Assembly: GCA_900696575.1 (NCBI GenBank) | Contig: CAADHD010000008.1 | Location: 1-49,961, forward strand | Reading direction: 5' to 3' | Length of the DNA: 49,961 nt | Source of the DNA: an uncultured Bacteroidota bacterium | GTDB lineage: Bacteria > Bacteroidota > Bacteroidia > AKYH767-A > OLB10 | Shown here: in pieces, positions 47,674 to 49,760 of the stretch | Numbering within the stretch: the stretch's first letter is position 1 | Layout: the number at the start of each line of letters is the position of its first letter | Made by a program: the position numbers and the translations under genes | The notes under the pieces: generated by a model | Database searches by the model: none | Told to the model about the DNA's origin: nothing | The model's input: only the letters and a program-made list of their open reading frames with translations

Positions 47674-48045
47674 ATGCTTAAGCATTACGAAACAGTCTTC
47701 ATCCTTACTCCGGTTTTGTCGCAAGACCAACTGGCCGAGGCCGTTGACAAGTTCAAGAAAATCCTCACCGGCAACGGTTCCAGAATTGTTTTTGAAAACA
47801 ATTGGGGATTACGCAAACTGGCTTACCCGATTCAGAAAAAGAATACGGGATTCTACTACCTCATTGAGTTTATGGGCGATGGGTCTATTATCAGCAAACT
47901 CGAAACCGAGTTTAAACGTGACGAGCGCATTATGCGCTATCTCACGGTGGCACTTGATAAACATGCCGTGGCTTACAACGAAAGAAAACGTAAACAAGCT
48001 GATTTGAAAAAGCAGCAGGAGGCTGAAACAACCGTAAACGAATAA
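47674..48045 (+). CDS. rpsF: 30S ribosomal protein S6
   Basis: A 123-residue ribosomal protein beginning [16 protein letters not shown], with the conserved [13 protein letters not shown]. It has a Lys/Gln/Glu-rich C-terminal tail. It binds 16S rRNA together with S18. It heads the operon rpsF-rpsR-rplI, with a gap of 4 nt to rpsR. Confidence 0.97.
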
Positions 48046-48049
48046 ACTT

Positions 48050-48328
48050 ATGAGCACAAAAGCACATTCAAAACAAGAGGTGAGATACCTTAATCCACCC
48101 GCTGCCGAAAAACAAAAAAAGAAATACTGCCGTTTCAAGAAGATTGGCATTAAATACATTGATTACAAAGATGCCGGCTTCCTGATTAAATTTGTTAATG
48201 AGCAGGGAAAATTGCTTCCCCGCAGGCTTACCGGTACTTCATTAAAGTATCAGCGCAAAGTTGGGCAGGCTATTAAAAGAGCTCGCCATCTTTCTCTGCT
48301 TCCTTATGTGGGCGATATGTTAAAATAA
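48050..48328 (+). CDS. rpsR: 30S ribosomal protein S18
   Basis: A 92-residue ribosomal protein with the S18 core '[18 protein letters not shown]' and [29 protein letters not shown]. The N-terminal extension of about 20 residues before the core is mildly longer than the E. coli protein. It starts 4 nt after rpsF and ends 22 nt before rplI. Confidence 0.97.
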
Positions 48329-48350: not shown

Positions 48351-48803
48351 ATGCAAGTTATTTTAAAACAAGATGTAAAAAACCTCGGCTTTGCCGATGA
48401 TGTGGTAACCGTTAAAAACGGTTACGGCATGAATTACCTCATTCCGCGCGGTTTGGCCGTGGCTGCTAACGAGGCCAATCAGAAAATGCATGCTGAAAAC
48501 CTGAAGCAGCGTGCTCACAAAATGAAAAAGATTGAAGACGATGCTTCTAAAGTGGCCGGCCTTATTGAAAGCGTTACGCTTACCATTCCTATGAAAGCCG
48601 GTGAAAAAGGGAAACTCTACGGCTCCGTTACAAGTCAGAACATTGCCGATGTGCTTAAAAAAATGGGACATAAAATTGACAAAAAGCAAATTCTTATGCC
48701 CGAAGAACACATCCGCCAGCTTGGAGCATATACTGCCGAAATTCTGTTACACCGCAATGTGAAAGTGAAAATAAACTTCGAAGTAACACAAGCCGAGAAA
48801 TAA
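48351..48803 (+). CDS. rplI: 50S ribosomal protein L9
   Basis: A 150-residue protein of typical length. The N-domain starts MQVILKQDVKNLGFADDVV and has NGYGMNYLIPRGLA; a long helix connects to the C-domain with EKGKLYGSVTSQNIADVL. It is the third gene of the rpsF-rpsR-rplI operon. AAAGGAGAA lies about 10 nt before the ATG, one of the few Shine-Dalgarno-like sites in the window. Confidence 0.97.
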   Translation: MQVILKQDVKNLGFADDVVTVKNGYGMNYLIPRGLAVAANEANQKMHAENLKQRAHKMKKIEDDASKVAGLIESVTLTIPMKAGEKGKLYGSVTSQNIADVLKKMGHKIDKKQILMPEEHIRQLGAYTAEILLHRNVKVKINFEVTQAEK

Positions 48804-48815
48804 ATTAACAAACCG

Positions 48816-48858
48816 GAGGCGTTGCATCACTTAGCAGGGCTTGGTGTTTCAGCGCCTC
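48816..48858 (+). other. GAGGCG/CGCCTC inverted repeat between rplI and efp
   Basis: GAGGCG (48816-48821) and CGCCTC (48853-48858) are complementary around a 31-nt loop, directly between the rplI stop and the efp start. No T-tract follows. It could be a weak terminator, a processing site or a leader structure; the evidence is limited to this pairing. Confidence 0.3.
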
Positions 48859-48879
48859 TGCAATTTAAAAACTAGAACT

Positions 48880-49443
48880 ATGGCTAATACAGGCGATATA
48901 AATGTAGGCTCAATCATCCGTTTTAACGGTGAACTTTGCCAGATTACAGAATACCAGCATCGTACTCCCGGCAACCTGCGCGCTTTCTATCAGGCCAAAA
49001 TGCGTAATCTGAAAACCGGTAAACAAACTGAATACCGTTTCCGTGCCGGTGAAGATGTTGAAGTGGCACGCGTAGAATTCAAAGTGTTGCAATTTATTTA
49101 CAAAGACGGAGAGAATATCGTTTGCATGGATAATCAGTCATTCGAACAGGTTCACATACCCGAAATCATGTTTGGCAATTCAAAAGATATTCTCAAAGAA
49201 GGCATGGAAGTTAAAGTAGCTTTTGAAGGCGATGAACCTTTGCTGGCCGAAGCCCCCACCTTTGTCGAACTTGATATCACCTACTGCGAGCCGGGTGTAA
49301 AAGGCGATACCGCTTCTTCTAACGTACTCAAACCCGCCACAGTAGAAACCGGAGCAACCGTTATGGTTCCCCTCTTTGTAAACACAGGCGAGCGCATTAA
49401 AGTGGATACCCGCACTATGAGCTACGTAGAACGCGTAAAATAA
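48880..49443 (+). CDS. efp: Elongation factor P with unusual tip residue
   Basis: A 187-residue translation factor that relieves ribosomes stalled at polyproline. The KOW-like domain (1-63) and the two OB domains are complete, with 'FVELDITYCEPGVKGDTA' and the C-terminal GERIKVDTRTMSYVERVK typical of EF-P. The loop that normally carries the modified Lys (PGKGQAF in E. coli) reads PGNLRAF here, so Asn32 replaces the modified Lys and Arg34 is two residues on. I chose ATG at 48880 rather than an upstream start at 48841 whose extra residues are unconserved. Activity may not depend on the known EpmA/EarP/YmfI-type modification. Confidence 0.96.
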   Translation: MANTGDINVGSIIRFNGELCQITEYQHRTPGNLRAFYQAKMRNLKTGKQTEYRFRAGEDVEVARVEFKVLQFIYKDGENIVCMDNQSFEQVHIPEIMFGNSKDILKEGMEVKVAFEGDEPLLAEAPTFVELDITYCEPGVKGDTASSNVLKPATVETGATVMVPLFVNTGERIKVDTRTMSYVERVK

Positions 49444-49467
49444 TTTCTGAATCACACATCCATTAAC

Positions 49468-49496
49468 GCCTGTCCTTACCCGACAGGCTTTTTTTT
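49468..49496 (+). terminator. Rho-independent terminator of efp
   Basis: GCCTGTC (49468-49474) pairs with GACAGGC (49482-49488) around a 7-nt loop and is followed by eight T. A clear intrinsic terminator for efp and possibly the upstream ribosomal protein operon. Confidence 0.85.
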
Positions 49497-49506
49497 ATAC
49501 TCCATG

Positions 49507-49760
49507 CGTCACTGCGTGTGATTCAGAAGCCAAGGCTGATGAAGCAACCAATCAGACTCATTCTTGTTTAACGTCACTGCAAGCGCGTGCAGCAGGATAA
49601 TGCAATGGCAGCTAAACAGTCTCATACTTTGAAACGTCACTGCGATCCGACCATAGGCAGCGAAGCAGTCTCATGAAATTAAGCGCTGCACCTATTAATA
49701 AGATTGCTTCATCAGTCATCTGCTTACGAATCAGGCATGATCGCAATGACAATCTTTTGA
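49507..49760. repeat. Clustered degenerate CGTCACTGC / AGATTGCTTC repeats
   Basis: CGTCACTGC occurs three times (49507, 49572, 49635), twice followed by CAGTCTCAT about 30-45 nt later. The inverse arrangement AGATTGCTTC...CGCAATGAC follows at 49701-49750. These resemble the widespread 'CGTCATTGCGA...GAAGCAATCT' family of intergenic repeats in partly decayed form. A related piece lies at 938-988. Small reading frames across this region look like translated repeat and are not called. Confidence 0.55.

Follow-up and report, generated by a model that had tools for sequence, protein, structure and literature searches.

Described EF-P tips and the Asn-type tip

In the Lys-type elongation factor P (EF-P) of Escherichia coli, Lys34 at the tip is beta-lysylated by EpmA and EpmB, while Arg-type EF-Ps are rhamnosylated by EarP. 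EfpL (YeiP) of E. coli uses its tip arginine unmodified, with a proline upstream, according to the available parts of PMC11611912, in which asparagine tips are also mentioned. In the available parts of Volkwein 2019 (PMC6544042), Asn34 makes up 2.23% of 1166 EF-Ps and is always accompanied by Pro32, and known EF-P modification enzymes are described as altogether absent from over half of bacteria.

The EF-P studied here is encoded by efp (48880..49443, forward strand) in the window, by which the whole analysed stretch of 49,961 nucleotides is meant. It shares with the Lys-type EF-P of E. coli the fold, the three domains and Pro32-Gly33, but carries Asn34 for Lys34, Leu35 for Gly35 and Arg36 for Gln36, and neither EpmA nor EpmB was found in its genome. 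Arg-type EF-Ps likewise have an arginine near the tip, which lies here at position 36 instead of 34 and in the presence of Pro32. The loop of EfpL, as described in the available parts of PMC11611912, is two residues longer with the arginine at its apex, and the efp product falls far below the EfpL model cut-offs; an arginine used unmodified downstream of a proline is what EfpL would have in common with the working of the Asn-type tip proposed below. Asn34 and Pro32 are shared with the Asn-position EF-Ps of Volkwein 2019, and efp belongs to that minority type as the available parts present it. Those main-text parts contain neither a coupling to Arg36, nor repeated switches, nor a Lys paralogue of the Pedobacter type, and no published description of a coupling between residues 34 and 36 was found in the literature searched, which included few subscription papers and no supplements. 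Against that literature, what appears to be new is the 34/36 coupling, Asn34 itself having already been published.

The efp gene and its product

The open reading frame starts with ATG, ends with TAA and comprises 187 codons plus the stop. At the end of the window the gene order on the forward strand is rpsF (bS6, 47674..48045), rpsR (bS18, 48050..48328), rplI (bL9, 48351..48803) and then directly efp, with 76 bases between rplI and efp. A generally conserved rplI-efp neighbourhood was considered and rejected, since bL9 was seen close to the gene in one of 80 related loci (flanks of at most 3 kb, some shorter); the position of efp directly after rpsF-rpsR-rplI (window 48351-48880) looks unusual among these 80 loci. 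A terminator-like hairpin followed by a T run lies 3' of efp (49468..49488, forward strand), a single hit where shuffled sequences give 1.0 by expectation, and so is weak alone. Bacteroidota promoters differ from the sigma-70 type, and a sigma-70 scan of 48780-49600, with a consensus that may not be that of the host, found no promoter.

The product scores 225.9 bits against TIGR00038 (curated cut-off 185.8) and exceeds the curated cut-offs of all three Pfam EF-P domains, PF08207, PF01132 and PF09285. Its AlphaFold2 model, built from 29 aligned sequences, has a mean pLDDT of 89.9 and a pTM of 0.67, and the best Foldseek match of this model in the PDB is Thermus EF-P 1ueb (TM 0.89). By curated cut-offs and by its three-domain fold, the efp product is a member of the EF-P family. 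The preliminary description, which had presented the gene as full length and adjacent to ribosomal protein genes, was right on both counts.

The tip reads HRTPGNLRAF, with the codons CGT ACT CCC GGC AAC CTG CGC GCT TTC from position 48961, and the beta3-beta4 tip loop TPGNLRA aligns with E. coli positions 31-37 (48964..48984, forward strand). The E. coli numbering used here equals the protein's own numbering plus 2. Own Asn32 (codon AAC, 48973..48975, forward strand) aligns with E. coli Lys34, the site modified in Lys- and Arg-type EF-Ps, and own Arg34 (codon CGC, 48979..48981, forward strand), the residue coupled to Asn, corresponds to position 36. Both the asparagine at the modified position and the arginine two residues beyond it are thus where they had been reported before. 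In terms of the described classes, the tip has the Pro32 of the Lys type and asparagine in place of its Lys34, and it lacks the combination of Arg34 without Pro32 that marks the Arg type (EarP). Having no Lys34, it also differs from the aminopentanolated EF-P of Bacillus. The EfpL/YeiP models give 106.5 bits (cut-off 216) and 98.8 bits (cut-off 264), and the extended EfpL-like loop is absent, there being no insertion in the aligned tip loop. None of the five aligned PDB EF-Ps shown among 12 PDB sequence matches has asparagine at the tip.

EF-P copies and modification enzymes in the genome

The genome (2.87 Mb in 35 contigs, listed as 100% complete) contains one EF-P match; a second, canonical EF-P, whose presence would have spoken against the preliminary description, was looked for and none was seen. 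The search for epmA and epmB that the same description had proposed found neither gene. The EpmA model reaches 238.1 bits in this genome, below the cut-off of 286.9, and none of 198 genomes of the phylum (this one included) exceeds that cut-off even though all of them match, while 2 of 14 control genomes do. Among the EpmA-model matches listed, the best have scores of 235 to 261 bits and lie in open frames of mostly about 500-600 codons; from their size we take them to be lysyl-tRNA synthetase. For EpmB there was no match in this genome, the model matching in 8 of 14 controls (E. coli included) and exceeding its cut-off in one of the 14. EarP was found in none of the 198 phylum genomes and in none of 16 genomes of an overlapping set, and the control genomes gave no match either; hence the EarP searches were not used as evidence of absence.

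Distribution of the Asn34 tip

EF-P matches were present in 196 of the 198 genomes of the phylum draw, five of which had two or more. The two genomes without a match (G157 and G197, family code f17) are each in more than 100 contigs, so a gap in the assembly is likely. EF-P tips across the phylum, whose alignment had been suggested beforehand, were read in 86 of the 198 genomes, picked from a ranking by likeness to the efp product. Asn34 was found in 43 of these 86, a proportion that is no population frequency, the lowest-scoring EF-P matches lying outside the genomes read, and in 38 of the 43 the Asn-type EF-P is the sole EF-P match. Its recurrence in these genomes goes beyond chance. That the asparagine tip is special to efp is not supported: it is widespread in the genomes read and is an already published minority type.

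A scan of GTDB genomes, with search patterns partly derived from the Asn tip, gave at least 595 candidates; among the best 80, asparagine tips occurred in named records of Sphingobacterium, Pedobacter, Mucilaginibacter, Raineya and Sediminibacterium, and also in MAGs of Chlorobiaceae and Ignavibacteria and in one MAG each of Acidobacteria and Verrucomicrobia. Of the genomes reached through the scan loci, those of Sphingobacterium, Mucilaginibacter and Chlorobiaceae have a single EF-P match, which is Asn-type. In samples likewise ordered by their similarity to an Asn-type query, Asn34 was present in 20 of 36 genomes read from Verrucomicrobiota (115 genomes) and in 47 of 78 read from Acidobacteriota (119 genomes), with the tip variants PGNLRAM, PGNLRGF, PGNWRGM and PGNKRGF.

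Other tips were met in the same material. The Verrucomicrobiota sample contains the Arg34 tips QGRQAGF and PPRMASY (L234-L236, L239, L241, L243, L244, L246, L331 and L336) and one Gln34 tip, TAQTRPK (L330); the EarP search gave no match in the genomes of L234, L235, L236, L239, L241, L243 and L330, nor in the controls. Two genomes of family code f3 (L065 of G007 and L066 of G091) have the tip TARAAAK, Arg34 without Pro32, and again the EarP search, silent in the controls, found nothing. One further genome, G196 (L111), combines an Asn-type EF-P with a second EF-P carrying Arg34 (VQTGRGGAYY).

Coupling of residues 34 and 36

In all, 307 EF-P rows were read, some genes having been fetched, and hence counted, twice. 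Arg36 accompanies Asn34 in 153 of 158 rows, the remainder having His (1), Lys (1), Pro (2) or Ala (1), and a basic residue 36 occurs in 8 of 125 Lys34 rows and 3 of 19 Arg34 rows. Position 34 is non-basic in 163 rows: Asn in 158, Gln in one and Ala in four, the last all in EfpL-like second copies. A non-redundant set of 182 rows was prepared at no more than 78% identity, keeping rare combinations first and dropping the four EfpL-like rows. Here a non-basic 34 goes with a basic 36 in 88 rows and a basic 34 with a non-basic 36 in 82; both are basic in nine and neither in three. Expressed by residue 34, a basic residue 36, nearly always Arg, is found in 88 of 91 rows where 34 is non-basic and in 9 of 91 where it is Lys or Arg. 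EF-P tips almost always retain a positive charge at 34 or 36.

Position 35 varies along with them. An earlier set of 146 rows shows Gly at this position in 72 of its 73 Lys34 rows, and each of its 70 Asn34 rows has Leu, Trp or Lys there. The overall pattern is a preserved Pro32-Gly33 in which Asn34-Leu/Trp/Lys35-Arg36 replaces Lys34-Gly35-x36. The tips lacking a basic residue at both positions (L242, L311 and L312) read PGNLPAR in two rows, with Arg at 38, and PPNNASY in one. Tips in which both are basic include PGKGRAx in five rows and PNKTRAM in Microscilla, and these could be intermediates.

Descent and repeated change

Common descent of all Asn-type EF-Ps was examined on a tree of 105 rows built without the tip columns. 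Asn-type as one clade was rejected on this tree (p-AU 5.7e-12), which is at odds with a single origin followed by no switch. Lys34 rows that branch from within the Asn type come from family code f2, from Microscilla (PNKTRAM) and from G109 and G128, the placement of the last two resting on branches that are not starred; the second EF-P copy of G196, with Arg34, is likewise nested there. On a careful tree of the 182 rows, whose bootstrap had not quite settled, the Asn label must have changed at least 11 times to account for the starred branches.

In family f2, genomes have a Lys-type paralogue, HRTPGKGGAF, without Arg36. Lys-type and Asn-type copies stand in tandem in G080 (L003), G138 (L004) and a Pedobacter record (L138), G080 being 96-97% identical to the Pedobacter record in both copies. 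The f2 paralogue nests inside the Asn type with branch supports of 98/86 and 100/99, and by this sequence-based placement the Pedobacter-type paralogue regained Lys34 and lost Arg36. A second, Lys-type EF-P is also present in two other f2 genomes, G099 (L063) and G122 (L064), the latter with a third EF-P match, while G002 of the same family has the Asn type only. EpmA exceeds its cut-off in none of G080, G138, G099 and G122.

The careful tree yields, on starred branches, 12 independent pairs differing at position 34. Residue 36 changed the same way in 7.0 of them, the opposite way in 0.1 and stayed alike in 4.9 (median p 0.0156; from 0.0078 to 0.22 depending on the pairing), in a row set that includes those on which the idea of coupling first arose. 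Gly35 gave 9.0 the same way, 0.0 opposite and 3.0 without difference (median p 0.0039). When basic residues were tested alike at ten further variable positions within 25-45, no more than 2.2 pairs changed the same way, and position 40 went the opposite way in 3.6. A quick tree of the 182 rows agrees, with residue 36 at 6.1 to 0.0 (median p 0.031). With the 105 rows alone the residue 36 test is not significant (median p 0.25); significance could be reached on 182 rows because those of Verrucomicrobiota and Acidobacteriota had been added.

Proposed working of the Asn-type tip

The comparisons speak, by a slight preponderance, for efp being a genuine working EF-P of an Asn-type tip class in which Arg36 would take over the charge and residue 34 is probably unmodified. 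Most simply, Arg36 would do the work of Lys34 at the tip, presumably by contacting the tRNA; the tip would need no modification, and the Asn-type EF-P would relieve polyproline stalling. Of the two options left by the preliminary description, a tip that works unmodified is somewhat favoured, because Arg36 is coupled to Asn34 across phyla, and an unknown modification system less so. That an unmodified tip arginine can serve has a precedent in E. coli EfpL, whose unmodified Arg33 is needed for its function (available parts of PMC11611912). The inactivity of E. coli EF-P K34N, reported in the available parts of PMC6544042, is no test of the role given to Arg36, since that mutant has neither Arg36 nor Leu35. 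Against such a role, position 36 is two residues off the apex and residue 36 keeps its class in almost 5 of the 12 pairs; the three non-redundant rows with neither charge, the nine with both and the lack of significance on the 105-row tree count against it as well. Moreover, the coupling of Gly35 is no weaker than that of residue 36, and so loop geometry may matter as much as charge.

The same coupling would arise if the modification site had moved, Arg36 carrying a still unknown modification such as a sugar on the arginine. The residue at 36 is indeed Arg, rather than Lys or His, in 153 of the 158 Asn34 rows, and the EarP-type EF-Ps offer a precedent for arginine modification (PMC6544042, available parts). 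However, Pro32 is present and is reported in the same parts to be seemingly incompatible with rhamnosylation, and EarP gave no match in the 198 genomes and the overlapping 16, with the controls silent too. We regard a relocated modification as unlikely.

It is equally improbable that strong polyproline rescue has been lost from the Asn-type EF-P, leaving it a weak or other role while ABCF- or YebC-type factors meet the need. Such alternative rescue factors exist (PMC11381351 and PMC11381339), and the K34N result could be read in this direction. The window plus 20 kb of another contig (about 70 kb) holds 21 PP runs and 1 PPP in 21,091 amino acids of predicted ORFs, few enough that rescue may be little needed, this genome having been counted alone. 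On the other hand, ValS of this genome keeps a PPP motif within IPPPNVTG, a stretch that in E. coli needs EF-P for efficient translation, and some need for rescue is therefore probable. The Asn-type EF-P is conserved and stands alone in most Asn-type genomes of the phylum sample (38 of 43), and retention of Arg36 is not expected under relaxed function.

Modification of Asn34 itself, by glycosylation, deamidation or otherwise, would account for the non-basic residue being Asn in 158 of 163 rows and not any small polar residue. It is more doubtful still, as the sequence NLR provides no N-x-S/T sequon and the coupling to residue 36 would be left unexplained.

Amides serve poorly as acceptors in the deoxyhypusine-synthase reaction. 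Modification of the tip by the deoxyhypusine-synthase homologue common in these genomes, a candidate suggested for Lys or Asn tips in the available parts of Volkwein 2019 (PMC6544042), is very improbable, the strong raw association in two phylum samples having vanished once the tree was counted. The homologue is present in 43 of 43 Asn-type genomes against 31 of 41 others in the Bacteroidota-phylum sample, and in 45 of 47 against 14 of 30 in Acidobacteriota; these counts leave out three Arg34 genomes (G007 and G091, which have it, and G382, which does not) as well as the four second copies of EfpL-like type, and score G334, G356, G405 and G415 (Acidobacteriota, weak fragment matches only) as lacking it. 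In the tree-aware test on 117 rows it varied the same way in 0.8 pairs, the opposite way in 0.6 and showed no difference in 5.6. The homologue of this genome (324 aa; L062, 8697-9671, from contig 21 of G000) is below the cut-off of all seven NCBIfam models that it matched and is perhaps engaged in polyamine metabolism; SpeY, the bacterial form of the enzyme, produces homospermidine and reportedly takes no part in deoxyhypusine formation (available parts of PMC9992855).

Implications

We tentatively propose, at a little under even confidence, that Asn34-x-Arg36 would add to modified Lys34 and modified Arg34 another kind of EF-P tip chemistry, one that is free of modification, has its charge moved two residues down the hairpin and, on the supported branches of a tree of Bacteroidota, Acidobacteriota and Verrucomicrobiota, was gained or lost at least 11 times. 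The coupling singles out one residue for experiment, for which the Pedobacter-type Lys paralogue is a natural control, and a three-residue swap of positions 34-36 is conceivable in E. coli EF-P. It bears on how EF-Ps work in the bacteria without known modification enzymes, where the repeated exchange of Asn and charge is a hint that the factor can function without the chemical modifications known so far.
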